Shown: positions 6,314 to 56,588 of the stretch, piece by piece
Position numbering within the stretch: the stretch's first letter is position 1
How the letters are laid out: every line of letters begins with the position of its first letter
Assembly (NCBI GenBank): GCA_016841185.1
Contig: JAENZQ010000009.1
Coordinates: 43,220 to 99,807, forward strand
From: Anaerovorax odorimutans
GTDB taxonomy: Bacteria; Bacillota; Clostridia; Peptostreptococcales; JAAYPU01
Length of the DNA stretch: 56,588 nucleotides
Direction: 5' to 3'
Position numbers and translations under genes: made by a program
The notes under the pieces: generated by a model
Database searches by the model: none
What the model was told of the DNA's origin: nothing
The model's input: the letters and a program-made list of their open reading frames with translations, nothing else

Positions 6314-9300
6314 ATGAAAAGAAATTTCTTTTTAATTAGAAAAATAATTGTATTATCTATTATTTTGATAGCAACCATTTTTCAGAGTGCGGTATTTGCG
6401 GCTTCCGTCAAAAGTAGCCCTCCGACAGTAAATAGTGGCGTGCTTGATCTTTCCTTGTGGGATATGGGAAAAGACGGAATAGTGGATTTGTCAGGAGATT
6501 GGGACTTTTATTGGAATACTTTCTTGACTAAAAAAGATTTTGAGAACCTTGAACCGAAGCCGGATATAAAAGCAAGAGTGCCGGTAGTATGGAATGCTTA
6601 TCAGATAAACGGAAAAAGCCTTCCGGGTTTTGGGCATGCCACATACAGGTTGCAAGTTGTCGGTACAGATCCGGGCAAGCCTATGGCTTTAAGAATTCCT
6701 ACCATGTCTACGGCTTATCGTATGTTTATGGATGATGAATTGATTGCTTCCAATGGTACTGCTACATGGGATAGGAATGAATTTAAGCCGGAGAATAGAC
6801 CGGTTACCGTTTGTATTGTACCTGAAACAACGGAATTCAACCTTATTGTACAGGTAGCAAATTATGTTTATGATCGCGGGGGAATGTGGTATTCAATAAA
6901 AATGGGTACACCTGCTCAGATCCAAGAGCTTACCAGAAATGTTACCTATCTTGATTTATTTCTGATGGGAAGCTTTTTTATTATGGGGCTTTACTATTTA
7001 AGTATTTTTCTCCTGAGGCGGGAAGATAAAGCCAGCCTGTACTTCGTATTGATGTGTATTGTTGCAATGGGCAGAACCATGATCCACGGAGATTATTCAA
7101 TTTATAAAATACTGCCTTTTATAAATTTTAAAATGCTTGTTGTATTGAACTACTATACCGTTTACTGGGCAGGAACAACGCTCCTTTTGTTTTTGCGGGA
7201 ATTATTTCCCAAAGAAATATCGAAATATTCCGTTCGAGGTGCTTTAATTTATTCGTTCAGCATTTCGATTATTACATTATTGTCGCCGGTATGGTTTTTT
7301 ACAAAACTAAAGCCGTTTATGATGGTAGCTGTTATTTTGACGATATCGTACGGATTGATCTTTACCCTTGTCGCTTATTTCAGGAAGCGGCAGAATTCTC
7401 TTATTGTATTGGCAGGCGGTTTTGTTATTGGAGTTTGTGTGTTATATGATGTTCTGTATCACAGTCAGTTGATTTCCTTTGAGCTGGGGGAGCTGACACC
7501 TTTTGGGTTCTATATATTCATTTTTCTTCAATCATTTATCCTTGCCAGACGATTTGCAATTACTTTCAGGAATGTCAATGATCTTTCAGAAAAGCTTCTG
7601 AAACTGGACAAGTTAAAGGATGAGTTCCTTGCAAATACTTCTCACGAGTTAAGAACACCTTTGAATGGTATAATTGGAATCACGGAAGCTCTGGCCCGAG
7701 GCAGTGAAGGGTCTCTTAATCCGGAGCAAAAAGAGAAATTGTCGATTATATCCGACAGCAGTAAAAGATTATCTAATTTAGTCAACGATATTTTGGATTA
7801 TTCAAAAATGAAATATGAGGATATCCAACTGAATTGCAAAGCTGTGAGAATAAATGCTGTTGTAAATCCGACATTAATGATATTAAAACATTCCTTTGAA
7901 TCGGATGTTAAGCTCATTAATGACATTGATGACAAATTGCCTCCTGTTATGGCGGATGAGAATCGATTTGCTCAGATCATCCATAATTTGATAGGTAATG
8001 CTTTAAAGTTTACTAAAGAAGGATATGTGAGAATCTCAGCAGAGCAATCAGACAAGCGAGTTTTATTTTGTGTTGAAGATTCAGGGGAAGGCATTCCTCA
8101 AGAAAAATATGAAGATATTTTTAAATCCTTTGAACAGTTGGATACATCCCTCACGAGAAAACATGGAGGCACTGGCCTGGGACTTCCGATAACAAAATAT
8201 TTAATTGAGCTTCAAAAAGGAGAAATATGGGTGGAATCTGCTTTAGGAGAAGGCAGTCGGTTTTATTTTACACTTCCTGTTGCACAGATGCAGGAGTATG
8301 GGGAAAAAGAAATTCAATTGGAAGAGCCTATTGAAGTTGTTCCTGATGAAAATGTCAATGGTACTGTTGGGAGAACCGGTGGAAATGATCAAATCCTTAT
8401 CGTCGATGATGAAAAAATAAACTTACAGGCTGCAGCTGCGATACTTAATATGGAAGGATATGCGGTCATAGGTGCAAATAGTGGATTAAAAGCTTTAGAT
8501 GTAATCAGAAAAAATGAGGATATTAATTTAGTAATATTGGATGTGATGATGCCTGAAATGTCAGGATATGATGTGTGCCGAACAATCAGAGAAAGTAAAT
8601 CCCAATTTGATTTGCCCGTATTGATGTTAACTGCCAAGACCAATACGGAAGACATTATTATTGGGTTTGAGGCCGGAGCAAATGACTATCTTTTCAAACC
8701 TTTCGAAACGGAAGAACTTATTGCAAGGGTAAAGACATTGGTCAGCCTTAAAAAATCAGTAGCTCAGGCAATGGCGGCAGAGTCGGCGTTTTTGCAGGCA
8801 CAGATCAAGCCCCACTTTTTATATAATACGCTGAATACCATTTCTTATTTTTGTGATGTTGATCCTCAGCGCGCCGAACAGCTTATTAATACATTTGCAA
8901 ACTATTTAAGATACAGCTTTGATTTTGAAAAACTTGAAACGCATACATCAATTGAAAAAGAGATAAGCCTTGTTTATTCATATCTTGAAATTGAAAAAGC
9001 GCGTTTTGGAGAGAACATGGAGGCGGTTATTGATATTGATGATAACCTTCAAGGGCTTGTTCCACCCCTGTCTATACAACCTTTGGTAGAAAATGCTATA
9101 CATCATGGGTTAAGAGGAAAAGGCGCGAAAGGCACTGTTATGATTTCAGTCCATAGAACAGAGGAAGGGATAAAAGTTGTTGTCAATGATGATGGTATTG
9201 GGATATCAAGTGATAAGCTGGAGAATTTGCTTTCAGATTATGATACCGAAGGTATTGGTCTAAGAAACATCGACCTAAGACTTAGAAAATTATATGGACG

Positions 9301-9397
9301 GGGATTAAAGATTCAGAGTGAAACAGGGAAAGGCACGAGAATAGAATTTACAATACCGACAGGAGGTGAAAGTGTTGATACAAGCGCTAATTGTTGA
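6314..9397 (+). CDS. Hybrid sensor histidine kinase with 7TMR-DISM sensor and two kinase modules
   Basis: The 1,027-residue protein starts with a signal peptide (residues 1-29). An extracellular jelly-roll domain of the 7TMR-DISM type (about 50-190) and a seven-helix membrane region (about 205-410) follow. The cytoplasmic part contains, in order: a HisKA dimerisation domain with phospho-acceptor His444 in SHELRTPLNG; a HATPase domain (SGEGIP, GGTGLGLPI); a receiver domain with Asp743 in LDVMMPEMSG; and a second, LytS-type kinase module with His834 in KPHFLYNTLNT and its own HATPase (VENAIHHG, GIGLRNI). It thus carries two complete but different kinases joined by a receiver. The response-regulator gene overlaps its 3' end, so the two form a two-component pair. 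The signal sensed may be a carbohydrate-like ligand, as inferred from the jelly-roll fold. Confidence 0.92.
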   Translation: MKRNFFLIRKIIVLSIILIATIFQSAVFAASVKSSPPTVNSGVLDLSLWDMGKDGIVDLSGDWDFYWNTFLTKKDFENLEPKPDIKARVPVVWNAYQINGKSLPGFGHATYRLQVVGTDPGKPMALRIPTMSTAYRMFMDDELIASNGTATWDRNEFKPENRPVTVCIVPETTEFNLIVQVANYVYDRGGMWYSIKMGTPAQIQELTRNVTYLDLFLMGSFFIMGLYYLSIFLLRREDKASLYFVLMCIVAMGRTMIHGDYSIYKILPFINFKMLVVLNYYTVYWAGTTLLLFLRELFPKEISKYSVRGALIYSFSISIITLLSPVWFFTKLKPFMMVAVILTISYGLIFTLVAYFRKRQNSLIVLAGGFVIGVCVLYDVLYHSQLISFELGELTPFGFYIFIFLQSFILARRFAITFRNVNDLSEKLLKLDKLKDEFLANTSHELRTPLNGIIGITEALARGSEGSLNPEQKEKLSIISDSSKRLSNLVNDILDYSKMKYEDIQLNCKAVRINAVVNPTLMILKHSFESDVKLINDIDDKLPPVMADENRFAQIIHNLIGNALKFTKEGYVRISAEQSDKRVLFCVEDSGEGIPQEKYEDIFKSFEQLDTSLTRKHGGTGLGLPITKYLIELQKGEIWVESALGEGSRFYFTLPVAQMQEYGEKEIQLEEPIEVVPDENVNGTVGRTGGNDQILIVDDEKINLQAAAAILNMEGYAVIGANSGLKALDVIRKNEDINLVILDVMMPEMSGYDVCRTIRESKSQFDLPVLMLTAKTNTEDIIIGFEAGANDYLFKPFETEELIARVKTLVSLKKSVAQAMAAESAFLQAQIKPHFLYNTLNTISYFCDVDPQRAEQLINTFANYLRYSFDFEKLETHTSIEKEISLVYSYLEIEKARFGENMEAVIDIDDNLQGLVPPLSIQPLVENAIHHGLRGKGAKGTVMISVHRTEEGIKVVVNDDGIGISSDKLENLLSDYDTEGIGLRNIDLRLRKLYGRGLKIQSETGKGTRIEFTIPTGGESVDTSANC

Positions 9398-10475
9398 TGA
9401 TGAACAGCCTGCAGCGGATAAAATGGAAATACTGCTTAAGGAGAGTGGTATTGTAGATATAAAAGGCAAGTTTACGAACTCTTTAACAGCCTTGGAATTC
9501 ATGGGAAAAACACATATTGATGTCGCTTTTCTTGACATAGAGATGCCAGTAATGAGCGGGATAGAATTATCTAAAATCATAAAAGAGCATTATGAGGACG
9601 TTACGATTGTTTTTATAACGGCTTATGACGAATATGCAGTGGAGGCTTTCAGGATCAATGCCATTGATTATCTTATGAAGCCTTTTGATCGGAAAGTATT
9701 AAAAGAAACCCTTGATAGGATCGTTAAACAGAAAGATATTCGGATAGGCCCTCTTCAGGCTCAAATATTTTGCTTAGGCGGATTTGAACTGGTTACAATG
9801 CAGGACAGTAAAGTAGAGTTTCGAACCTTCAAGGCTGAAGAATTAATGGCTTTTTTCATTGATCGGAGAGGTGCCGAGATATCCAGAAGTGAAATAACGG
9901 ATAATCTTTGGCCGGAATTTGATGGAGATAAAGCAATATCGAACTTTAATGCCACACTCTATTATCTGAAAAAAGCTTTGGAGAAAAATGGAATAAAAGC
10001 GCCTGTCGAACGTATAAAAGACAGATACAAGCTGAATTTTAATGATCTTGAATGTGACTACTTTAAGTTTATAAGTTTTATATCTTCTTTAAAGGATATT
10101 CATAAGAACAATATATCAGAATGTGAAGCAACTACGGCTCTTTACAAAGGAGAATATCTAAAAGGGTGCGAATTTTCTTGGGCAGAAAAAAACAGAAATC
10201 TTGTCAGAGAGAAGTATGTTTCATTGATCCTTAAGATGGGAAAGTACTATAAAGCAGCAAAAAAGCATAATAAATTGGTGGAGCTTTTAAAAAACAGCAT
10301 AAAATATGAGCCGCTGCATGAAGGTATCAATGCGATGCTCTTGGAGACTTTAATGATGATGGGAGACAGACTTACAGCAGTTAAGCGGTATAATAGTTAT
10401 AAAAGAAAGTTAAAACAAGAATTTGGGATGGAGCCAAATCAAGAACTTAGAAAAATAATGGAAAAGGCAAAATAG
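9372..10475 (+). CDS. Response regulator with SARP-like (winged helix plus BTAD) output
   Basis: The receiver domain (residues 1-118) has the acidic pair in IVDDEQ, phospho-acceptor Asp55 in FLDIEMP, the conserved ITAYDEY and Lys in LMKPFD. The C-terminal half carries a winged-helix DNA-binding segment (EFRTFKAEELMAFF...NLWPEF) and a bacterial transcriptional activation (BTAD) helical repeat region ending in RYNSYKRKLKQEFGMEP, the arrangement seen in SARP-type regulators. The start is ambiguous: AGGAGG at 9361-9366 fits GTG 9372 or TTG 9375, and the upstream GTG at 9366 is unlikely because it overlaps that site. Its first 26 bases overlap the kinase gene, so translation is coupled. Targets may include the adjacent SLH giant gene, but that is only positional inference. 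Confidence 0.88.
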   Translation: MLIQALIVDDEQPAADKMEILLKESGIVDIKGKFTNSLTALEFMGKTHIDVAFLDIEMPVMSGIELSKIIKEHYEDVTIVFITAYDEYAVEAFRINAIDYLMKPFDRKVLKETLDRIVKQKDIRIGPLQAQIFCLGGFELVTMQDSKVEFRTFKAEELMAFFIDRRGAEISRSEITDNLWPEFDGDKAISNFNATLYYLKKALEKNGIKAPVERIKDRYKLNFNDLECDYFKFISFISSLKDIHKNNISECEATTALYKGEYLKGCEFSWAEKNRNLVREKYVSLILKMGKYYKAAKKHNKLVELLKNSIKYEPLHEGINAMLLETLMMMGDRLTAVKRYNSYKRKLKQEFGMEPNQELRKIMEKAK

Positions 10476-10660: not shown

Positions 10661-10689
10661 GTGATTCAAATTTAGTGGAGGTGAAGGGA

Positions 10690-13600
10690 ATGAAAAACAA
10701 AAAACAGAATTTATTATGGATTGCAATTATTTTACTTATGACAAGCACTTTTTTTCCTGCTGTTTTTGCTCAGTCGACTGACAGCAATTATTTAGAAGAT
10801 ATTAATAATCACTGGGCTCAAAATGAAATTATTAGCTATGTGGAAAAAGGTTTTTTTAAGGGGTATAATGATCATACCTTTAAACCCGATGTTTTTATAA
10901 AAAGATCAGAATTTGTAACGGTAATCAATAAAGTATTTGGGTTTTATGAAAAAGAATTTATTGATTTTAAAGATGTGTCCAAAGGAAGTTGGTATTACGA
11001 CGAGATATTAAAAGCAAAATATATAGGCTATGTAAACGGAGACAATCAGGGCTATTTTTATCCGGATCAATACATAACCAGGCAAGAGGCGGCTACAATT
11101 ATTGCCAGAATACATGATTTGGACGAAGATACAATCGAAGAAGAGCTTAATTTTTCAGATAAAAACGATATATCAGATTGGGCAGTCGACAATGTCAAAG
11201 CGGTTGTACAAAAGGGATATATAAAGGGATATAGAGACAATACTTTCAAGTCTAAAAATAATATTACCAGAGCTGAAGCAGCCGTTTTAATCAGCCGTGT
11301 TTCCGGAGAGGTGTATAACGCTAAGGGTGATTATGGAAAAAATGAGGCGGTAAAAACAATACAAGGAAATGTTACAGTAGCCTGTACCGGCGTGAATTTG
11401 TCCAATTTGCATATAAAAGGAGACTTATATTTGACTGAAGGGATTGGAGACGGAGAAGTAAGGCTGGACAATGTTAAGGTAGATGGAAAAACCATCATAA
11501 AAGGCGGTGGCCCAAACAGTATCTTAATTATCAATTCGGATTTGAATATTGTGGTGATAAATACTGAAACAGGGCAGGTCAGAGTGCTGGCGAAAGACGA
11601 TACCAAAATCGATAATGTCGTTGTTTCATCCAGCGCAAAACTAGAAGAGGAAGAATTAACCGGAGACGGTTTTAGGAATTGTATTGTCAATGTACCTGAT
11701 GGAGAAGAAGTCATATTTGCAGGAGAGTTTAAGAATGTAGAAATCGATTCGCCTAATATGAATCTGAATGTTGCATCCGGAAATATTGAAAATTTGACCA
11801 TCAGCGATAAAGCGAAAAATACAAACCTTGAAATAGGTAAAAATGTAACCATCGGAAATGCTAACATAAAGGCAGCAGCTAAAATAACCGGAGAAGGGAA
11901 AATAGAAAAAGCAGATATAGAGTCAGATGATGTTGATATAGATGAAGATGTTTATTCAGAACCAAGCAGTTCGGGGAGCAATTCAGGCAGTGGCAGCAGA
12001 AGAAACAGCACGCCAAGTAATACGGCGCCAATAGTAGTAAATGAAATAGCAGATATTACAGATGCCATAGTCGGGAAAGTAATAACTGTAGACTTAAGCA
12101 ATGTATTTACAGATGACGATGGCGATGTACTAACTTTAAGTGCGGACAAAGGAATAATAGAAGATAAAATATGGAAAAGGACACCGTCAGCAATTGAAAC
12201 CATAACAGTGACCATTACTGCAAATGACGAAAACGGCGGAACAGCTTCGGATTCCTTCAATGTGACATCTATAGACCCAAACAGTATATCAACAGTAAAG
12301 CCGGGAGAAGAAACACAAACAGGTACGGCAGTACCGGCATCCAATGATGGAGAAACAGCGGCGGTACCGTATATGGAAGATGTATCGCAATGGTTTGTAG
12401 ATTCAAATACGGATATATTTACTTATACATTAGTATCAGTACAGGATTCAGATACCAATGATGTCAGTAGTGATGTAACATTGAACAGAACCACCGGCGC
12501 CATTTTCTATACGCCTGAAGCGGCACAGGCAGGAAAATATGTGAGTATTAACGTAAAAGGAGACAATTTAACAGATGGCACTATAGGAAATGTTATCATA
12601 ACCATAACAGTAGGAGCCGTACCAAGTGATGGGAACAGTGCACCTATAGTGGAAAATCCCATACCGGATCAAAGCGGAACTGTAGGAGAAGCTTTCAGCT
12701 ATACATTTGGAGCAGATGTATTTGCTGATGCAGATGGTGACAATCTGACATATACAGCAGCACCATTGCCGAACGGCATTACCTTTACGGCAGGTACAAG
12801 GACTTTCAGCGGCACACCTACAACAGCAGGTACAACAAGTGTAGTGGTGGCGGCAGATGACAGCAAAGGCGGAACGGTTACCGAAACCTTTGACATTGTC
12901 ATTACAGAGGTGCCTAACAGTGCACCGGCAGCAAATGCCTGCTTGATTACTACAGACGAAGATACACCTATATCAGGTATACTGGCGGCAAACGATGCAG
13001 ATAATGATGATTTAACATTTAGCAAAGTATCAGACCCATATCATGGAAGTGTTACTATTAATGCAGATGGTTCCTATACATATACGCCAACAACTAACTA
13101 TAATGGTTTCGACAGCTTTACTTTTAAAGCAGACGATGGAGCAATAGAATCTGAATCGGCAACAGTCAGTATAACTATTAATTCAATAAACGATGTACCT
13201 ACATTAGAAAGTGCTATACCGGACCAAAGCGAAACGGTGGGAGAAGCTTTCAGCTATACATTTGGAGCAGATGTATTTGCTGATGCAGATGGTGACAATC
13301 TGACATATACAGCAGCACCATTGCCGAACGGCATTACCTTTACGGCAGGTACAAGGACTTTCAGCGGCACACCTACAACAGCAGGTACAACAAGTGTAGT
13401 GGTGGCGGCAGATGACAGCAAAGGCGGAACGGTTACCGAAACCTTTGACATTGTCATTACAGAGGTGCCTAACAGTGCACCGGCAGCAAATGCCTGCTTG
13501 ATTACTACAGACGAAGATACACCTATATCAGGTATACTGGCGGCAAACGATGCAGATAATGATGATTTAACATTTAGCAAAGTATCAGACCCATATCATG

Positions 13601-16600
13601 GAAGTGTTACTATTAATGCAGATGGTTCCTATACATATACGCCAACAACTAACTATAATGGTTTCGACAGCTTTACTTTTAAAGTAGGCGATGGAACAAT
13701 AGAATCGGAACCAGCAACAGTGAGTATCACAGTCAATCCGGTAAATGATGCACCGACAGTAGTAAGCGGTGAGGAAATACAGACAGGAACAGCAATACCG
13801 GAATCTAATGATACCTTTACATCGGCAGTATTATATACAGCAAATGTATCAGGATGGTTTGACGATATAGATGAAGATACATTAACCTATGAATTGGTAT
13901 CAGCGCAAGATGAAGGAACAACAGATGTCAGCGGTGATGTGAGTTTGGATACAAACACAGGTGCATTAAGCTATACACCTGATGCAGCACAGGTGGAACA
14001 GGATGTCACCATTGAAGTAAAAGCAAATGACACAACTGCGGACAGCGCATCCAACGTAACCATAACGGTAGCGGTAGGAGCAGTACCAAACAGTGATCCT
14101 GTGGCAGAGGATGATACAGGGACGGTTGATGAAGACAGTACGATACTAATAGATGTGTTGGCAAATGATAGTGATGAAGACGGTGATACTTTAGCAATAG
14201 ATAGTTTCACAGAAGCAAGTGACGGTACAATAGCACAAGAAGGAGACAGTATAAGATATACGCCGGATGAAGATTTTAATGAAACAGACTCTTTCACTTA
14301 TACTATAAGAGACGGCAACGGAGGAACGGATACAGGAACTGTAAATATAACAATAAATTCAATAAATGATTTGCCTGTAGCAGTTGATGATACACCAACG
14401 ACAAATGAAGATACAGCCGTTACTGTTACAGTATTGGCAAATGATACGGATGTAGACGGGGATACACTATCCGTTACAGGATTTACACAAGGAATCGATG
14501 GAAGCGTTTCTCAAGAACAAGAAACCAACAATCTCATTTACACACCAAATTTGAATTTCAATGGAGCAGATTCATTCACCTATGATATAAGTGACGGTAA
14601 AGGAGGTATTGCAACAGCAACAGTTAATGTTACAATCACTCCGATCAATGATGTACCGACAGTAATAAGCGGTGAGGAAATACAGACAGGAACAGCGACA
14701 CCGGCATCTAATGATACTTTGACACCGGCAGTATCGTATTCAACGGATGTATCAGGCTGGTTTGATGATGTAGAAGAAGATACATTGACCTATGAATTGG
14801 TATCGGCGCAAGATGAAGGCACAACAGACGTCGGCGGTGATGTGAGTTTAGATACAAACACAGGTGCATTAAGCTATACACCCGATGCAGCACAGGCAGA
14901 ACAGGATATTACCATTGAAGTAAAAGCAAATGACACAACTGCAGACAGCGCATCCAACGTAACCATAACGGTAGAGGTAGGAGCAGTGCCTGCAGACACA
15001 CCGCTAACTGCAGAAGGAACTATATGCGATTCGGAAGCAGGAATTGATTTTATAGGTGTTCTTTACACGAGGGATGGAAATATATACTACAATCAACATG
15101 ACGGTCAAGGCAACTGGGCTGGTGAGATATTAATAAGCGCAGGTACAGAAGGTAAACTTGCTGTAGATAATTTGGACTGTATTCATGCAGCTTACACAAC
15201 AGCAGGCGACAAAATAGGCTACAGAATGTATGACGGAAGTGCTTGGACTGATGAGGAGTTGATTGAAAGTAATAATGGAGGAGCCTGCTCCATGCCAGAT
15301 ATTGATACAGATAGCAGTGGATTTGTCCATATAACTTATACGGATACATTGGGTAATACAGGCGATGCTTGGGATTATCCTGACATTATGTACGCGACAA
15401 ATTCTTCCGGCAGTTTTCAAAAATCTCTGATTTTTAATGGGTATAAAGATAATTATGATAACATGATACCCGGGTATCCTGCACAGTATTTCGAAAAGGG
15501 TTCAAATATTGCAGTTAAAGAAGGTAATTACTATATCACAGCACATAAATACGGCACAGGGTATAGTAAAACTTATTCAGTTGAAGTCAAATCAAATCTT
15601 GGAAGCGGAAGTACAGGAACTTCTTCATCCAATGTTTTCGATATCTATGATTTAACTGCAAATGGGGGTAAAGTTATCGCTTTGTATAAACACAGCAGCT
15701 TTAAAACGGCAGAATTAAGTGTCAGCGGAGAAACCATTAACTTCACAAATACAGAAGACTTAACAGGTGCATCAGTTAGCTCTGTTGCAACAAATGGTAC
15801 CGATATTGTGGCAGCCGGAATAAGCTCAACAAAACTGCAAGTCCATTACAATGGAATATCAAGCGTTTTTGATGATATAGCAGTTGAAGGTACGAAGGTA
15901 TCGGTAGTAAACTTAGATGGAAATTTTTATGCAGTATATAGAGATAATAGTGATCACAAAATTAAGATGCAATTAATTGGAGCACCGGCTCTGACTTATA
16001 CCATCAGCTTAGATACAATTGATCCAACTGATTTAGGAACAGTAACAGAAGGCTATGCATCAGAAGCTCCAACGGATGTTTCTGTTATAAAAACTGGAAC
16101 CGGTGATATTACTAACCTATTAGTAGCATTAAGCGGGACCAATGCAGATAGCTTTACAGTTACTCAGCCGGTAGCAGCAACATTAGATGACGAAACAACA
16201 TCGACAACCTTTACGGTAGTGCCAAACGATGGATTGGCGGTTGGAACATATACAGCGAATGTAGATGTAACAGCAAACGATGGAGTAAGTGAGTCATTTA
16301 TAATCAATTTTATAGTTAAAGAGCCGGCGCCTGCAGAATCAGCATTAATGCCTACAGCTGATGCAACCGACGTGTTAATAGATGCAGTCGTAAGCATTGT
16401 ATTTGACCGTAATGTAACTGTTAATAATCTAAGTGGAATTAAGATTGAATATGATGATGGCGGGATACAAAGCGTGCCGAGTTTAAGTTCTTCTTTAAAT
16501 GACCGTACAATAACAATAGATCATGATGATTTTTTAAATGGCACTACATTTACGGTAACCGTACCGGCAGATGCAGTAAGGAATTCAGAAGGAACAGGCA

Positions 16601-18399
16601 ACGAAGAAATCACATGGAGTTTTACCACAGTAATTCTAGGAGCAGAAATAACTATCGATAGCTTGCCTTTACAGATTGGTGCAAATGAAACTGCAACTGC
16701 ATCTACAACAGAGGCAGGTGCATGGGGCTGGATATCTGAGATGCCAAGTGTAGCGACCATTGATGCAGAAGGTAATATTACAGCTCTTACTCAAGGAAGT
16801 ACGATAATCAGCTATACAACATCAACCAGCGGTAAGGTCAATTCTGTTGAGGTAGAGGTTTATTCGGAGCCAAACGATGTAAGCGGAAGTTTAATGTTTG
16901 GAGACTCAACAACAACCATATCTGGCGGAACCAAGCAATTAACAGGATTTTCAAGTCCAAATCCTGATGAGACCGGGACATTTGAAATTAAAGACGGTTC
17001 AACAGATGTTATTACAGTTGATAACAACGGATTGGTGACCTATGTAGCAGACGATACGAAAACTATACGTTATGAATTAATAGAGACGGAAACCGGTCAA
17101 TTGTATGAGTTTGGGGAAGTAGACATAACTGCCGGACCTGCTCCGGCACCGACACTTTTATCGACATTCCCTGGAGATCAGGATAATAATATACCAACAA
17201 CAGGAGATCTTACGGTTGTGTTTAATGAGAATATAGCTCAAGCTGGCGATAATTTGAACGGTGTAACCATCACTTGTAATGGTGGAGATGATTCAGTAGG
17301 AAATATTAGTATATCTATTGATACTGATGATCTTCGTGTTTTGAACATTGCTCATGATGAACTTGCCAATGGGACCTATTATACTGTGTCAATCCCTTCA
17401 GGTTTAGTCAAGCAAGAGGCAGAAAGAAGTTATACCAATGAGGAAATTACATTTAGCTTTACAACAGTAGCAAAAGAGATTACAGGCTTTACAGCGTTAA
17501 CAGATGTGACTTTAGATGCTGATGAGCATTTGATTGATTTAGCAGCATTAAAAGCAAGTGGGAAACTTCCAGACACAGTAGAAGTAACAGATGGAACAAC
17601 TCCGGTGAATGCAACTATTACTGATTGGTCAGGAACATTTGATGGAACAGTAACAGACACCTATACCTTAACAGCAACATGGACAATGCCAGACGGTTAT
17701 GCTGATGAAATCGACCCTATCGCTGTGACACTCAATGTTGTTGTAAGTACTGCTCAAACAGAAGTTCCAGCACCGATAATAAGTGATGTAGAAATCAAAG
17801 CAGGAGATTACAATAAAATAGGCGGTACTATTATTGCAACTGTAATTACAGATGATTCGGGGTATACGGCAGACGAAGTGTTTGTGAATGGAGTGGATGT
17901 GACAGATACAATTGAAGATCAAGGAGACAATACTTATAAATTTACGTATACAGTTGCAGAAGGGGATACAGATCGTTCCGCTGAAGAAGATATTCCGATT
18001 AGTGTTGTACTTAATAATAACGGAATGACGAACGATCCCTATACTGAAATACCTACATATACTCTTAGTTTAATTCCTCTTATTGATGCAAATAAGCCTA
18101 CTGTAGTAAGTGCAAGTGTAGAATATGCGGCACCAGATAAAATAGTAATAGTATTTAGTGAAACGATAAATGGGAATACACAATATCAGTTAAATACATT
18201 TACAATTAATGAAAGTAGTTCACCGGTTTCAATGACAGCATTGCCTTCGGATACAGTAACTTTTACTTTAGACGCTCCAGTTAGTTCAGGAGAAGAAGTC
18301 ACATTTACTTATACTGGAGAGGGAGATTTTGCTGATACTCCTGCTTCTAACCAACTGGAAGGATTCACAGTAAGCGTTGAGAATAATGTGATACAATGA
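10690..18399 (+). CDS. Giant SLH-anchored surface protein with cadherin/Ig-like repeats (2,569 aa)
   Basis: ATG 10690 is preceded by GGAGGTGA; the upstream GTG at 10675 is within that region and unlikely. The product has a signal peptide ending near VFAQ (residue 28) and three N-terminal SLH domains (HWAQNEI, GSWYYDEILK, ISDWAVDNV, up to about residue 208). A beta-rich region of about 230 residues follows, then a Ser/Gly linker (about 425-445). The long tail holds tandem Ig/cadherin-like domains: putative-Ig units (FGADVFADADGDNLTY), Tandem-95/VCBS-like units (NEDTAVTVTVLANDTD), a possible beta-propeller-like segment (about 1440-1770), Big_5/SbsA-like units (VSIVFDRNVTV, LTVVFNENIA) and a BIG2-like unit. 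The Asp-rich turns suggest Ca2+ binding. Likely role: cell-surface adhesion or S-layer component. A relic of a further repeat lies just after the stop. Confidence 0.92.
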   Translation: MKNKKQNLLWIAIILLMTSTFFPAVFAQSTDSNYLEDINNHWAQNEIISYVEKGFFKGYNDHTFKPDVFIKRSEFVTVINKVFGFYEKEFIDFKDVSKGSWYYDEILKAKYIGYVNGDNQGYFYPDQYITRQEAATIIARIHDLDEDTIEEELNFSDKNDISDWAVDNVKAVVQKGYIKGYRDNTFKSKNNITRAEAAVLISRVSGEVYNAKGDYGKNEAVKTIQGNVTVACTGVNLSNLHIKGDLYLTEGIGDGEVRLDNVKVDGKTIIKGGGPNSILIINSDLNIVVINTETGQVRVLAKDDTKIDNVVVSSSAKLEEEELTGDGFRNCIVNVPDGEEVIFAGEFKNVEIDSPNMNLNVASGNIENLTISDKAKNTNLEIGKNVTIGNANIKAAAKITGEGKIEKADIESDDVDIDEDVYSEPSSSGSNSGSGSRRNSTPSNTAPIVVNEIADITDAIVGKVITVDLSNVFTDDDGDVLTLSADKGIIEDKIWKRTPSAIETITVTITANDENGGTASDSFNVTSIDPNSISTVKPGEETQTGTAVPASNDGETAAVPYMEDVSQWFVDSNTDIFTYTLVSVQDSDTNDVSSDVTLNRTTGAIFYTPEAAQAGKYVSINVKGDNLTDGTIGNVIITITVGAVPSDGNSAPIVENPIPDQSGTVGEAFSYTFGADVFADADGDNLTYTAAPLPNGITFTAGTRTFSGTPTTAGTTSVVVAADDSKGGTVTETFDIVITEVPNSAPAANACLITTDEDTPISGILAANDADNDDLTFSKVSDPYHGSVTINADGSYTYTPTTNYNGFDSFTFKADDGAIESESATVSITINSINDVPTLESAIPDQSETVGEAFSYTFGADVFADADGDNLTYTAAPLPNGITFTAGTRTFSGTPTTAGTTSVVVAADDSKGGTVTETFDIVITEVPNSAPAANACLITTDEDTPISGILAANDADNDDLTFSKVSDPYHGSVTINADGSYTYTPTTNYNGFDSFTFKVGDGTIESEPATVSITVNPVNDAPTVVSGEEIQTGTAIPESNDTFTSAVLYTANVSGWFDDIDEDTLTYELVSAQDEGTTDVSGDVSLDTNTGALSYTPDAAQVEQDVTIEVKANDTTADSASNVTITVAVGAVPNSDPVAEDDTGTVDEDSTILIDVLANDSDEDGDTLAIDSFTEASDGTIAQEGDSIRYTPDEDFNETDSFTYTIRDGNGGTDTGTVNITINSINDLPVAVDDTPTTNEDTAVTVTVLANDTDVDGDTLSVTGFTQGIDGSVSQEQETNNLIYTPNLNFNGADSFTYDISDGKGGIATATVNVTITPINDVPTVISGEEIQTGTATPASNDTLTPAVSYSTDVSGWFDDVEEDTLTYELVSAQDEGTTDVGGDVSLDTNTGALSYTPDAAQAEQDITIEVKANDTTADSASNVTITVEVGAVPADTPLTAEGTICDSEAGIDFIGVLYTRDGNIYYNQHDGQGNWAGEILISAGTEGKLAVDNLDCIHAAYTTAGDKIGYRMYDGSAWTDEELIESNNGGACSMPDIDTDSSGFVHITYTDTLGNTGDAWDYPDIMYATNSSGSFQKSLIFNGYKDNYDNMIPGYPAQYFEKGSNIAVKEGNYYITAHKYGTGYSKTYSVEVKSNLGSGSTGTSSSNVFDIYDLTANGGKVIALYKHSSFKTAELSVSGETINFTNTEDLTGASVSSVATNGTDIVAAGISSTKLQVHYNGISSVFDDIAVEGTKVSVVNLDGNFYAVYRDNSDHKIKMQLIGAPALTYTISLDTIDPTDLGTVTEGYASEAPTDVSVIKTGTGDITNLLVALSGTNADSFTVTQPVAATLDDETTSTTFTVVPNDGLAVGTYTANVDVTANDGVSESFIINFIVKEPAPAESALMPTADATDVLIDAVVSIVFDRNVTVNNLSGIKIEYDDGGIQSVPSLSSSLNDRTITIDHDDFLNGTTFTVTVPADAVRNSEGTGNEEITWSFTTVILGAEITIDSLPLQIGANETATASTTEAGAWGWISEMPSVATIDAEGNITALTQGSTIISYTTSTSGKVNSVEVEVYSEPNDVSGSLMFGDSTTTISGGTKQLTGFSSPNPDETGTFEIKDGSTDVITVDNNGLVTYVADDTKTIRYELIETETGQLYEFGEVDITAGPAPAPTLLSTFPGDQDNNIPTTGDLTVVFNENIAQAGDNLNGVTITCNGGDDSVGNISISIDTDDLRVLNIAHDELANGTYYTVSIPSGLVKQEAERSYTNEEITFSFTTVAKEITGFTALTDVTLDADEHLIDLAALKASGKLPDTVEVTDGTTPVNATITDWSGTFDGTVTDTYTLTATWTMPDGYADEIDPIAVTLNVVVSTAQTEVPAPIISDVEIKAGDYNKIGGTIIATVITDDSGYTADEVFVNGVDVTDTIEDQGDNTYKFTYTVAEGDTDRSAEEDIPISVVLNNNGMTNDPYTEIPTYTLSLIPLIDANKPTVVSASVEYAAPDKIVIVFSETINGNTQYQLNTFTINESSSPVSMTALPSDTVTFTLDAPVSSGEEVTFTYTGEGDFADTPASNQLEGFTVSVENNVIQ
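12685..13684 (+). repeat. Exact about 445-bp internal direct repeat (555-bp period)
   Basis: Bases 12685-13129 recur at 13240-13684; I see no difference between the two copies, while the sequence between and around them differs. One period is 185 codons, a two-domain unit (putative Ig plus Tandem-95-like). Confidence 0.9.
13752..14989 (+). repeat. Diverged direct repeat, 903-bp offset
   Basis: About 335 bp starting at 13752 recur from 14655 with scattered differences. It encodes a domain beginning VSGEEIQTGTA / ISGEEIQTGTA and ending at VGAVP. A more distant relative lies near 12303 (KPGEETQTGTA). Confidence 0.8.
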
Positions 18400-44374: not shown

Positions 44375-45040
44375 ATGAACAAATTAGTATCGGTAGAAAG
44401 GGCTATTGAAACAATTAAAGATGGTTCTTCTATAATGGTAGGAGGTTTCATGGGAACAGGGACTCCTGAAATTCTTATTGATGCATTGGTTGAAAAAAAA
44501 GTAAAGGATTTAACCATTATATGCAATGATTCCTGTTATCCGGGAAGAGGAGTATCAAAGCTCATAGCTGAAAAACAAGTGAAAACATTAATTGCTTCTC
44601 ATGTGGGACTGAACCCGGAGACAGGAAAGCAAATGAGTGAAGGCATTATGGAGGTTGAGCTGGTTCCTCAAGGCACATTGGCAGAAAGAATAAGAGCCGG
44701 AGGTGCAGGCCTCGGGGGCTTTTTAACAAGAACCGGAGTGGGGACTGTTGTTCAGGAAGGAAAACAGGTTATTGAAGTTGACGGGGATAAATACCTTCTT
44801 GAGAAGCCTTTAGCAGCGGATTTTGCATTTATAAGAGCCTCTATTATCGATAAAAAGGGAAATGTTTATTATCATGAGTCCACAAGAAACTTTAATACGA
44901 TTATGGCAACGGCAGCGAATACGGTTATTGCGGCAACAGAGAAATTGGTGGAAGTTGGAGAAATGGACCCTAATATCGTTATGACGCCGCATATTTTTGT
45001 GGATTACATTGTAGAGGGGGAAAAACCATGGCAGATATAA
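44375..45040 (+). CDS. CoA-transferase alpha subunit, copy 1 (acetoacetate/butyrate type)
   Basis: The 221-residue protein is a family I CoA-transferase subunit A with [16 protein letters not shown] at the CoA-binding start, and [16 protein letters not shown]. With subunit B it should move CoA between butyryl-CoA (or acetyl-CoA) and acetoacetate, the acetoacetate coming from Kce. It overlaps subunit B by 13 bp. From 44537 its sequence is identical to the second copy at 48542, a sign of gene conversion. Confidence 0.93.
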
Positions 45041-45565
45041 AGCACTTTATCGCAAAAAGAGTGGCAAAGGAGCTAAAAGATGGAGATGTTGTGAATCTTG
45101 GAATAGGACTTCCTACACTTGTTGCCGACTACATTCCTTCCGATTATGATGTGACATTTCAATCAGAAAATGGTTTTGTGGGCATTGGGCCGGCACCGGA
45201 AAAAGGTAAAGAAGATGTGGATTTAATCAATGCAGGCGCACAATATGTATCTGTAAAGCCGGGTTCGGCTTTTTTTGACAGTGCCGTTTCATTCGGAATC
45301 ATTCGAGGCGGCCATGTGGATGCCACGGTTTTAGGGGCCTTGCAGGTAGATGAAGAAGGCAACCTTGCCAATTGGATTATTCCAGGTGTTATGGTGCCGG
45401 GAATGGGCGGTGCAATGGATCTTGTGAGTGGTGCAAAGAAAGTGATTATCGCCATGCAGCATACAAATAAAGGAAAACACAAAATTCTTAAAAAATGCAC
45501 ACTTCCATTAACAGCGGAAAAAGAAGTGGATCTCATTGTAACGGAAATGGGTGTCATTGAAGTAA
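44537..45565 (+). repeat. 1,029-bp tract identical to 48542-49570 (direct repeat, copy 1)
   Basis: With a constant offset of 4,005 bp I find no difference between 44537-45565 and 48542-49570. The flanks within the same genes differ at many positions. This is a gene-conversion footprint. Confidence 0.92.
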
Positions 45566-45681
45566 CAAATGAAGGACTCGTATTAAAAGAAATTAATTCT
45601 GAATATACAGTTGAAGAGGTTGTCAGCGCTACTGAGGCGCATCTCATTATAAGCGATGATTTAAAACCTATGGAGGGATAA
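45028..45681 (+). CDS. CoA-transferase beta subunit, copy 1
   Basis: The 217-residue subunit B has the catalytic Glu in [12 protein letters not shown] and GLGLP-like motifs ([15 protein letters not shown]). It completes the heteromeric acetoacetate CoA-transferase. The first 179 residues are identical to those of the copy at 49033; only the C-terminal tails differ ([10 protein letters not shown] here versus [10 protein letters not shown] there). Confidence 0.93.
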
Positions 45682-48376: not shown

Positions 48377-49045
48377 ATGAAAAATAAGATCATGACTGTT
48401 GAAGAAGCCATAGCTCCTATAAAGGATGGAGCCGTTGTCATGGTAGGAGGTTTCATGGGAACAGGGACTCCAGAAATACTAATAGATGCATTAGTTGATA
48501 AAAAGGTAAAAGATCTAACCATTATATGCAATGATTCCTGCTATCCGGGAAGAGGAGTATCAAAGCTCATAGCTGAAAAACAAGTGAAAACATTAATTGC
48601 TTCTCATGTGGGACTGAACCCGGAGACAGGAAAGCAAATGAGTGAAGGCATTATGGAGGTTGAGCTGGTTCCTCAAGGCACATTGGCAGAAAGAATAAGA
48701 GCCGGAGGTGCAGGCCTCGGGGGCTTTTTAACAAGAACCGGAGTGGGGACTGTTGTTCAGGAAGGAAAACAGGTTATTGAAGTTGACGGGGATAAATACC
48801 TTCTTGAGAAGCCTTTAGCAGCGGATTTTGCATTTATAAGAGCCTCTATTATCGATAAAAAGGGAAATGTTTATTATCATGAGTCCACAAGAAACTTTAA
48901 TACGATTATGGCAACGGCAGCGAATACGGTTATTGCGGCAACAGAGAAATTGGTGGAAGTTGGAGAAATGGACCCTAATATCGTTATGACGCCGCATATT
49001 TTTGTGGATTACATTGTAGAGGGGGAAAAACCATGGCAGATATAA
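48377..49045 (+). CDS. CoA-transferase alpha subunit, copy 2
   Basis: The 222-residue protein starts with a divergent N-terminus ([21 protein letters not shown]) but from residue 56 onward is identical to copy 1. It should have the same CoA-transferase role. A 150-bp spacer separates it from Kce2; it holds an imperfect TTAATTAAT inverted repeat (about 48317-48347) and no clear terminator, so co-transcription with Kce2 is possible. Confidence 0.92.
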
Positions 49046-49570
49046 AGCACTTTATCGCAAAAAGAGTGGCAAAGGAGCTAAAAGATGGAGATGTTGTGAA
49101 TCTTGGAATAGGACTTCCTACACTTGTTGCCGACTACATTCCTTCCGATTATGATGTGACATTTCAATCAGAAAATGGTTTTGTGGGCATTGGGCCGGCA
49201 CCGGAAAAAGGTAAAGAAGATGTGGATTTAATCAATGCAGGCGCACAATATGTATCTGTAAAGCCGGGTTCGGCTTTTTTTGACAGTGCCGTTTCATTCG
49301 GAATCATTCGAGGCGGCCATGTGGATGCCACGGTTTTAGGGGCCTTGCAGGTAGATGAAGAAGGCAACCTTGCCAATTGGATTATTCCAGGTGTTATGGT
49401 GCCGGGAATGGGCGGTGCAATGGATCTTGTGAGTGGTGCAAAGAAAGTGATTATCGCCATGCAGCATACAAATAAAGGAAAACACAAAATTCTTAAAAAA
49501 TGCACACTTCCATTAACAGCGGAAAAAGAAGTGGATCTCATTGTAACGGAAATGGGTGTCATTGAAGTAA
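48542..49570 (+). repeat. 1,029-bp tract identical to 44537-45565 (direct repeat, copy 2)
   Basis: Second copy of the identical CoA-transferase tract. Divergence restarts sharply at 49571 and, at the other end, at 48541. Confidence 0.92.
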
Positions 49571-49686
49571 TGCCGTTCGGACTATTGCTTAAAGAAATCA
49601 ATACGGATTATTCAGTTGAACAGGTTGTTGAAGCAACGGAAGCAGACATTATGATAAGTTCAAATTTAAAACCAATGATGAAATAG
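49033..49686 (+). CDS. CoA-transferase beta subunit, copy 2
   Basis: The 217-residue partner of the preceding gene overlaps it by 13 bp. The catalytic Glu in SENGFVGIG is present. It is identical to copy 1 up to residue 179, then diverges in the tail ([19 protein letters not shown]). The divergent tail still reads as a normal CoA-transferase C-terminus, so both copies should be active. Confidence 0.92.
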
Positions 49687-54594: not shown

Positions 54595-56588
54595 ATGAAA
54601 AGAAAGAGTCTAAAAAATGTTAATCCCGTTCTCATATTTTTATTAGTGTTTGTGATGGTACTGACTTCAGGTGTTTCTTATGCAGATACTATTCATCTTT
54701 CATCTGAAGGCGGCAGTATCACAGATATTGAAAAACATTGGGCAGAAGCATTTATAACAAAATGGATGACTAAAGGTTTGGCGAAGGGTTATGATGATCT
54801 GCATTTTTGCCCGGATAATAGTATAACCCGCTCAGAATTTGTTGCTCTAGTAAATAGAGCTTTTGGTTTTTCTGGAGAAAGGGATTGTCATTTTACAGAT
54901 GTTGAAACGGGTATCTGGTATGAGACAGAAATAAAAAAAGGCATTCAGGCAGGGTATGTCAACGGCTATGATGATAATACATTTAAGCCTTGCAAAGAAA
55001 TCAGTCGTGCTGAGGCAGCTGTGATCCTATTTAGACTCCTGAAACTCAATACGGCAAAAGAGACTGTATCTGGTATTTTTTCTGATTCGGAAGAAATAAT
55101 GTCATGGGCCAGAGATGCAGTAAGTACAGTAGTTTTAGAGGGATACATGGTAGGATATTCAGACGGCACCTTTAAACCGAGCAATCCCATAACACGCGCA
55201 GAGGCGATTGTCATGCTAAGTCGTGGTGTGGGAGAACTTTTTAATGAATCCGGAACTTTTGGACCGGTTGAAGGTCAACTCAACATAGATGGAAATGTGA
55301 CCGTGAATACAGATGATGTCATATTACAGAATATAAAAATAGAAGGGAATCTCTATTTAGCGGCCGGTATTGGCGACGGAACTGTAGAACTCGAAGGCGT
55401 CACTGTCAAGGGCAAAACGGTCGTAAGCGGTGGAGGAGAACACAGTGTTATTATAAATAATAGTTCCCTTGGTGAAGTTTACGTCATTCGAATAGGCGGA
55501 TATGTAAGAGTTGTTGCCAAGGGAGATACTTCTATAGAAAAAGCTATATTGGAAACAAAGGCTAAACTTGAGGAAGAAGGTTTAATTGGAGAAGGATTCG
55601 AAGATGTTGAAGTCAAAGCTTATGATACTTCAGATGGAGAAGTTGTTTTAGATGGAGAATTTAATAATGTCATGGTGCAAACCGGTGCCGATATAGACAT
55701 TACTGAAGATACAAAAGTGGAAAGCCTGAATGTGGCTCAAACAGCAGGAGAGACAACGATCAATATCAGTAAGAATGCCTCTATAGGCAGCCTTGTTTTG
55801 GAGGGGAATTCAAAAGTTAAGGGAACAGGGACTATCAATAATATAACGAATAATTCAAATTCAGTAATTGATGATGATTTGAATATAAAAAAAGATAACG
55901 TGCCTGAAGGCAACGGCGACAGAAGCGGCGGTGGAAGCGGCGGAAGCGGCGGTGGAGATGATGATACTTCACAGCCTGAAATATTGTCAATTTTACCAAG
56001 AGATGATTCAGAAAATGCAGCGGTAAATACCAACTTGGTGATCACATTTAATGAAAAAGTAACTTCAACTTCAGGAAAGAGTATTACTCTTTTAAAGACA
56101 GCAAATGATACCATAGTAAGAACAATTGCAGCAATTAGTTCAGAAGTGAGTATAAATAAAAAAGTAGTAACCATCAATCCTACGGATGATTTTGATTATT
56201 TGACTGAATACTATATTTTGATAGATGAAGGTGCATTTAAGGATGCAGCAGGCAATAGTTTTTCCGGTATCAATGATCGTTCAACTTGGAACTTTAAAAC
56301 AGCAGCAGATACGGATGCGGATACAACACCGCCGGTGATTGCAGACGTAGCAGATGCAGATATTCCTGAAGCGAATATCGCCACATGGGAAGCACCGGAT
56401 ACAACTGCTCATGACAATGTGGACGGCGATATCAGCGGAAATATCGGGATTACCTATACAAGCGAAGATGCAGGCAGTAATGTCACAGACCTGGCTTCTG
56501 CCAGAGCACATCTTTCCGCTCAGATAGGCAATACCGTAACAGTTGCTTACAATGTGGCCGATGCGGCAGGCAACAGTGCGGCAGAAGT
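54595..56588 (+). CDS. SLH-anchored surface protein (3' truncated by window edge)
   Basis: The reading frame is open from ATG 54595 (AAAGGAGTTGAAAGG upstream) to the end of the window, 664 codons. It has a signal peptide ending near SYADT, three SLH domains (HWAEAFIT, GIWYETEIKK, MSWARDAVST) up to about residue 215 and a beta-rich domain (about 225-430) that clearly matches the one in the giant SLH gene at 10690 (GNLYLAAGIGDGTVELEGV versus GDLYLTEGIGDGEVRLDNV). A Gly/Ser linker and a Big_5/SbsA-like Ig domain (TNLVITFNEKVTSTSGKSI) follow, then the start of a further Ig-like domain. It is a wall-anchored surface protein paralogous to the giant protein. Confidence 0.92.
   Translation, partial: MKRKSLKNVNPVLIFLLVFVMVLTSGVSYADTIHLSSEGGSITDIEKHWAEAFITKWMTKGLAKGYDDLHFCPDNSITRSEFVALVNRAFGFSGERDCHFTDVETGIWYETEIKKGIQAGYVNGYDDNTFKPCKEISRAEAAVILFRLLKLNTAKETVSGIFSDSEEIMSWARDAVSTVVLEGYMVGYSDGTFKPSNPITRAEAIVMLSRGVGELFNESGTFGPVEGQLNIDGNVTVNTDDVILQNIKIEGNLYLAAGIGDGTVELEGVTVKGKTVVSGGGEHSVIINNSSLGEVYVIRIGGYVRVVAKGDTSIEKAILETKAKLEEEGLIGEGFEDVEVKAYDTSDGEVVLDGEFNNVMVQTGADIDITEDTKVESLNVAQTAGETTINISKNASIGSLVLEGNSKVKGTGTINNITNNSNSVIDDDLNIKKDNVPEGNGDRSGGGSGGSGGGDDDTSQPEILSILPRDDSENAAVNTNLVITFNEKVTSTSGKSITLLKTANDTIVRTIAAISSEVSINKKVVTINPTDDFDYLTEYYILIDEGAFKDAAGNSFSGINDRSTWNFKTAADTDADTTPPVIADVADADIPEANIATWEAPDTTAHDNVDGDISGNIGITYTSEDAGSNVTDLASARAHLSAQIGNTVTVAYNVADAAGNSAAE

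Follow-up and report, generated by a model that had tools for sequence, protein, structure and literature searches.

A CBM54-type β-helix with a predicted self-cleavage site in two SLH-anchored surface proteins of Anaerovorax odorimutans

Two putative surface proteins, here called A and B, are encoded in a 56,588-nucleotide stretch of Anaerovorax odorimutans DNA (assembly GCA_016841185.1, contig JAENZQ010000009.1, positions 43,220 to 99,807 of the forward strand; the whole stretch is referred to as the window), and share a domain directly after their SLH triplets. Judged by sequence similarity and predicted fold, the shared stretch corresponds to CBM54, a domain known from ChiW and Lic16A; the two domains are further members of a known domain type, not a new family. 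We propose that this domain is a right-handed β-helix with a built-in self-cleavage site. It would link the SLH domains, a non-covalent wall anchor, to the outer part of each protein and act there as a breakable clip (probability about 0.72). A and B probably contain a known self-cleaving domain that serves as a clip rather than as a plain spacer. The features concerned, with positions in the window, are as follows.

10675..18399, plus strand: protein A, an open reading frame (ORF) of 2574 residues with a GTG start; an ATG lies at 10690
11314..11958, plus strand: CBM54-type β-helix domain of A (residues 214–428), from the match to ChiW (5gzt) and the model
11503..11520, plus strand: predicted self-cleavage site of A, GGGPN/S (Asn281/Ser282; Ser codon 11518–11520)
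11581..11583, plus strand: Arg303 of A, equivalent of ChiW Arg304 near the cleavage site
11965..12000, plus strand: Gly/Ser-rich linker of A, from residue 431 (end approximate)
54595..56586, plus strand: protein B, an ORF open at its 3' end, where the window cuts it
55240..55875, plus strand: CBM54-type β-helix domain of B, matching ChiW (5gzt) and homologous to that of A
55429..55446, plus strand: predicted self-cleavage site of B, GGGEH/S (His283/Ser284; Ser codon 55444–55446), aligned to the start of 5gzt chain B
55507..55509, plus strand: Arg305 of B, equivalent of ChiW Arg304
55927..55956, plus strand: Gly/Ser-rich linker of B, from residue 445 (end approximate)

Shared domain of proteins A and B

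Protein A begins with a stretch that by eye resembles a signal peptide, followed by three SLH domains, the β-helix, the Gly/Ser linker and cadherin/immunoglobulin (Ig)-like repeats; its Pfam matches are SLH, Big_9, Cadherin_5, He_PIG and Big_5. The order in B is three SLH domains, β-helix, Gly/Ser linker and Big_5. In both proteins the SLH triplet lies directly N-terminal of the domain (Pfam SLH, E-values of 1.8e-30 and 9.4e-33, three stretches each). Residues of A are numbered from the GTG at 10675; the 10690 given in an earlier, preliminary description of this DNA is the ATG five codons downstream. Just past the window end, near position 2850 of the extended locus (L002), the frame of B reaches a brief run of N letters, translated as three X, and then a stop.

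The two proteins are 40% identical across 415 residues when the SLH domains are included. The domains alone align with 39% identity over 210 residues and a score of 144 bits, compared to a maximum of 35.8 bits from 100 shuffles of B's domain, and the homologous part after the triplets amounts to about 215 residues. This bears out the preliminary description, which had noticed that some 200 residues after the SLH triplet match between A and B, with a Gly/Ser linker after them in both, and whose span for A (11340–11960) is close to the limits found here. The strings that it quoted are exact: in A, GDLYLTEGIGDGEVRLDNV starts at residue 249 (nucleotide 11419) and KLEEEELTGDGF at residue 322 (nucleotide 11638), while in B GNLYLAAGIGDGTVELEGV starts at nucleotide 55345 and KLEEEGLIGEGF at nucleotide 55564.

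Family assignment and predicted fold

No Pfam or NCBIfam model scores above its cut-off across the shared domain of A and B. The sole Pfam row over the domain, Calmodulin_bind (residues 287–352 of A; E = 0.15; 12.6 bits, with the cut-off at 25.5), was taken as chance, and NCBIfam gave no row there. The earlier remark that the domain was not recognised as a named family, which hits to a known Pfam family of described function were to overturn, is therefore correct for these two databases, but not in general, as the domain is the CBM54 of ChiW and Lic16A (PMC5132251). Against the sequences of the PDB, the domain of A matches the two chains of ChiW (5gzt) with E-values of 2.4e-14 and 8.6e-14, and that of B with 6.3e-13 and 1.9e-11; no other PDB sequence matches either domain up to an E-value of 10. 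Both domains thus resemble a characterised CBM54 at an E-value of 1.9e-11 or better, and both are flanked by SLH domains on the N-terminal side and by a Gly/Ser loop and outer modules on the other. Searches of phages gave no match up to an E-value of 1e-3, and a single plasmid record matches the domain, which is unannotated there.

A confident model of the A domain, built from 34 sequences (two from the window and 32 from named loci), has a predicted local distance difference test score (pLDDT) of 96.5 and a predicted template modelling score (pTM) of 0.92. It is predicted to form a right-handed parallel β-helix, for which ChiW is the best row: the top two Foldseek rows are 5gzt chains B and A, and VIA superimposes the model on 5gzt chain B with a Z-score of 20.2 and a deviation of 1.2 Å over 146 residues (model residues 69–215 onto ChiW 283–433). 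Since this alignment starts at model residue 69, Ser282 of A sits on Ser283 of ChiW. The next VIA row after ChiW has a Z-score of 15.3. TibA, antigen 43, tailspikes, pectinases and lyases were considered as relatives and set aside, since in the rows listed they have Z-scores of 11.4 to 15.3 at 6–16% identity and only the fold in common. Of the two shapes proposed before, a β-helix or a bactofilin-like solenoid, the β-helix agrees with the model, whereas bactofilin finds no support, no such model being among the Pfam matches up to an E-value of 1 (HMMER filters drop many weak matches).

Predicted cleavage site

The CBM54 of ChiW is a right-handed β-helix of 12 coils, and the protein is cut within it, between Asn282 and Ser283 (PMC5132251). 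Because the cut lies inside the domain, ChiW is present as two chains in 5gzt, which part at the motif: chain A ends with GGGEN and chain B begins with SVHMN. According to the same paper, Lic16A is cut likewise, between Asp and Ser, the cleavage motif is G-G-G-X1-X2-S-X3-X4, and the residues of the site are Ser283, His285, Asp262 and Arg304; the two ChiW chains are joined by 13 hydrogen bonds, with the halves together in the crystal (PMC5132251). The sequence GGGPNSIL of A fits this published motif in full. The equivalents of ChiW 262, 283 and 304 are spaced 21 residues apart in all three proteins (261/282/303 in A, 263/284/305 in B), a spacing that would stack the site residues in successive coils. 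Five copies of the domain were found in this genome, A, B and three more, all with GGGx[NHD]S[IV] and the arginine. A DNA pattern for the motif was also run on the genome and dropped, as it gave one forward and three reverse matches with one and two in the controls, which is chance level, and found one of the five true copies.

We infer the cleavage of A and B, its chemistry and a role in release. The CBM54-type domain would fold outside the cell, where Ser282 (A) or Ser284 (B) would attack the preceding peptide bond with its side-chain hydroxyl, aided by the Gly-Gly-Gly turn and by the arginine about one coil further on. The chain would break at Asn281/Ser282 or His283/Ser284, and the two halves would be held together by the hydrogen bonds of the β-helix, so that only non-covalent contacts would join the 240-kDa outer part of A to the 32-kDa SLH piece. 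As a breakable clip, the domain may let the outer part be shed under pull or in a trigger condition. The authors of the ChiW structure already proposed that the cut might help the cell to detach (PMC5132251). The position of ChiW His285 is not generally a histidine, and His is therefore left out of the proposed mechanism.

Conservation of the site

Of 398 genomes sampled from the phylum, 88 have a match to the domain, as have 4 of 21 near relatives; both counts include the genome studied here. The survey comprises 174 loci, 48 of them from named records; 208 hits reduce to 171 distinct copies, of which 165 cover the site. About 80 of the weaker or further phylum matches were picked by choice among the matches listed, the weakest being left out.

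The motif is widespread in these 165 copies, with GGGxxS in 135, GGGxx[ST] in 139 and the strict form GGGx[NDHQ]S[VI] in 125. Among 44 copies retrieved with a pattern that does not contain the motif, 40 have GGGxxS. The residue at X2 is Asn in 89 copies, Asp in 28 and His in 15. The cleavage serine is the most conserved polar column (0.88), and the arginine (0.80) is level with a tyrosine. Presence of the arginine goes with the motif: it is found in 125 of 138 copies with the motif, compared to 6 of 25 without it (one gap row dropped on each side; p = 1.2e-11). No other conserved column tested outside the motif is associated as strongly, Thr60 coming next with p = 1.3e-4.

Seven motif-lacking ORFs (L120, L122, L124, L127, L134, L136 and L138) are 512–527 residues long, have a short N end that by eye resembles a membrane helix, match the β-helix and lack GGGxx[ST]. 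They are possible uncut controls. Two Paenibacillus ORFs (L051:4365-5183 and L052:4365-5183) stop just ahead of GGG, such that the SLH domains and about the first third of the helix remain. A split gene was considered for both and rejected, no second half being visible by eye in the three forward frames printed downstream.

Placement and cargo

SLH domains precede the domain in 129 of 159 ORFs (three or more in 122), as called with a profile of our own, derived from the six repeats of the window and widened by iteration, and not with Pfam. The median gap is 12 residues, and it is 40 residues or less in 121 of the 129. An SLH match after the domain occurs in one of the 159 ORFs, although the frame runs off the stretch in 50 and a later SLH could be missed there. 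Among the 30 ORFs without SLH ahead of the domain, 13 have fewer than 60 residues there. Nine of the remaining SLH-less ORFs, chosen by eye and scanned, carry ChW (three), CWB2 (three) or Cu_amine_oxidN1 (three) ahead of the domain; ChW and CWB2 are wall-binding families, and Cu_amine_oxidN1 is not known as an anchor. The motif is present in 7 of 18 ORFs that have neither SLH nor as many as 100 residues before the domain, many of which start like a membrane helix by eye; these 18 include L030 and L119, whose frames are cut or start next to the domain. The expectation that the domain always follows SLH triplets is thus mostly right, but does not hold strictly. Downstream of the domain, a Gly/Ser-rich stretch is present in 68 of 155 cases, compared to 3 of 525 control stretches. 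Tandem copies of the domain occur in six ORFs, and in five of these both copies have GGGxxS.

The cargo after the domain was scanned in 151 C-terminal parts of at most 900 residues, fewer where the stretch ended; 8 of the 159 ORFs had fewer than 60 residues left and were omitted. Counts are taken from the best 25 of 71 and of 57 families, so that those for hydrolases are minimum values, and a protein may have been counted twice. Big_2 is the commonest family listed (29), and hydrolases give together at least 21 matches (GH16 at least 11, GH26 at least 5, GH43 at least 3, GH18 at least 2). The list is thus mixed, with hydrolases as one kind of cargo among others. Hydrolases are stressed in the ChiW paper, a supporting legend of which also lists CBM54 proteins with S-layer and transglutaminase domains (PMC5132251). 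Protein A itself has no hydrolase match in Pfam.

Relation to known systems

The closest known system is ChiW of Paenibacillus sp. FPU-7 (PDB 5gzt; PMC5132251), which resembles A and B in sequence, in fold, in the GGG, Ser and Arg of the site, in the SLH domains before and in the Gly/Ser loop after the domain; X2 is Asn in ChiW and A, and His in B. ChiW differs from A in its cargo, carrying two GH18 chitinase domains where A has cadherin/Ig-like repeats and no hydrolase match. Lic16A of C. thermocellum and LamA of Paenibacillus, no named copy of which was identified among the loci, are likened here through PMC5132251 only; their domains are of the same CBM54 family, bind polysaccharides and have a conserved motif region, while their cargo, unlike that of A, is a β-glucanase. 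CwpV of Clostridioides difficile is also described there as a surface protein that cuts itself via a hydroxyl residue, which in CwpV is a threonine, not a serine as in A and B (PMC5132251). By title or abstract opening, no other paper among the matches listed presents this domain as self-cleaving, subscription papers (including those on Lic16A and LamA) lying outside this scope.

Extracellular self-cutting with halves that stay associated is known from SEA and GAIN/GPS domains and from autotransporters of the AIDA-I/Ag43 type. SEA and GAIN have other folds and AIDA-I/Ag43-type proteins other sites; the likeness drawn here is one of function.

Functional interpretation

Several observations weigh against a self-cleaving clip. 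The residues around the serine are incompletely kept. GGGEHSVI of B fits the published motif save for X4, which is an Ile outside the list, and the place of ChiW Asp262 is taken by Glu261 in A and by Thr263 in B, Thr being outside the substitutes listed in the paper (PMC5132251). At the place of His285, A has Leu and B has Ile, and 44 of 165 copies have a histidine. The catalytic set is therefore uncertain. Moreover, 26 of the 165 copies lack GGGxx[ST], so that the fold can persist without the motif. The sampling favours motif-bearing copies, since the alignment used to draw 117 of the 165 has an invariant motif and arginine and the loci from named records were confirmed by tblastn with A itself, and the p-values of motif association ignore the relatedness of the copies. 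In a tree, at least 15 changes of the motif and 17 of the arginine occur, but only six supported independent pairs; in these, arginine and motif differ the same way in 1.4 pairs on average, the opposite way in 0.0, and 4.6 show no difference. The control column Thr60 did no worse (2.2 the same way and 0.2 opposite, a figure from among the columns listed of the 19 controls run), hence the tree does not single out the arginine. For ChiW, a specific protease was not excluded, and the CBM54 domains of ChiW, Lic16A and LamA bind polysaccharides, which a pure clip does not need (PMC5132251).

This last property is the basis for a different reading, in which the domain is first a polysaccharide-binding module, in line with its CAZy name, for plant or fungal walls or for the cell's own wall, and the chain break a by-product. 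Chitin, glucan and xylan are among the polysaccharides bound by these three CBM54 domains, yet no aromatic cleft or patch is present in that of ChiW, as described in PMC5132251. Some relatives do carry the hydrolases counted above, whereas the commonest listed cargo is Big_2 and A has no hydrolase match. The near absence of SLH domains after the domain, in so far as the frames allow, would be an odd restriction for a free binding module, and the best-kept polar column is the cleavage serine, the arginine tying with a tyrosine. We consider this reading rather unlikely. It is improbable that the domain is only a rigid stalk, with GGGxxS and the arginine kept for the folding of that coil. β-Helices are common as surface stalks, and the 26 copies that keep the rest without the motif would suit one; in these, Thr60 falls to 9 of 26 and Gly47 to 21 of 26, and part of the change may thus be local structure. 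Nevertheless, the same copies keep other core columns (Gly36 26 of 26, Leu38 26 of 26, Gly58 24 of 26) but mostly lack the arginine, and cleavage at the site is reported for two family members (PMC5132251). The suggestion of a rigid spacer through the wall is accordingly right about the β-helix, but misses its main feature, a conserved cleavage site within it.

The bond might instead be cut by a separate protease, an explanation to which we give little credence. The ChiW paper leaves room for a specific protease and describes the cut as proceeding during purification, but the break occurs both in native ChiW and in recombinant ChiW produced in E. coli (PMC5132251). The site also lies within a coiled helix, and the conserved Gly-Gly-Gly/Ser/Arg set resembles a self-cleavage centre. 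The self-cleaving clip can be extended to a broader, tentative proposal, possible but short of probable, that CBM54 was misnamed by its first members. Its main job would be that of a self-cleaving breakable clip after any Gram-positive N-terminal anchor (SLH, ChW, CWB2 and perhaps Cu-amine-oxidase-N or a membrane helix). Adhesins and enzymes would be held by a β-helix that is cut yet closed, and could be shed by force or signal.

Genomic neighbourhood

Directly before A, the window encodes (6314–10475) two proteins that could be regulators of A, a histidine kinase of the hybrid 7TMR-DISM kind and a BTAD-domain response regulator. A third SLH protein (33–1622) has its best SLH stretch near the C-terminal end and a Listeria-Bacteroides repeat domain; when the genome was searched with the domain of A, no match fell in it, and Pfam cannot show CBM54. 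Two overlapping ORF pairs, of 221/217 and 222/217 residues, lie at 44375–45681 and 48377–49686 and are perhaps a duplicated subunit pair. The first follows a β-keto acid cleavage enzyme, and an ORF with a weak zinc-dehydrogenase match lies between the two.

Significance

A shared domain without a name is now linked to a crystal structure and to a reported self-cleavage, which is more informative than a spacer, and an exact bond is predicted for two surface proteins. Beyond the ChiW paper, the present analysis shows which N-terminal domains can stand before the domain, how varied its cargo is and that its place after the anchor is fixed, and it counts motif and arginine over 165 copies. The domain is common in the phylum, with matches in 88 of the 398 genomes sampled, though no Pfam or NCBIfam model rises above its cut-off here. 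If the domain is indeed a self-cleaving clip, many proteins known as 'S-layer' or 'adhesin' proteins would be two chains rather than one, and data on shedding, adhesion and the secretome would read differently.
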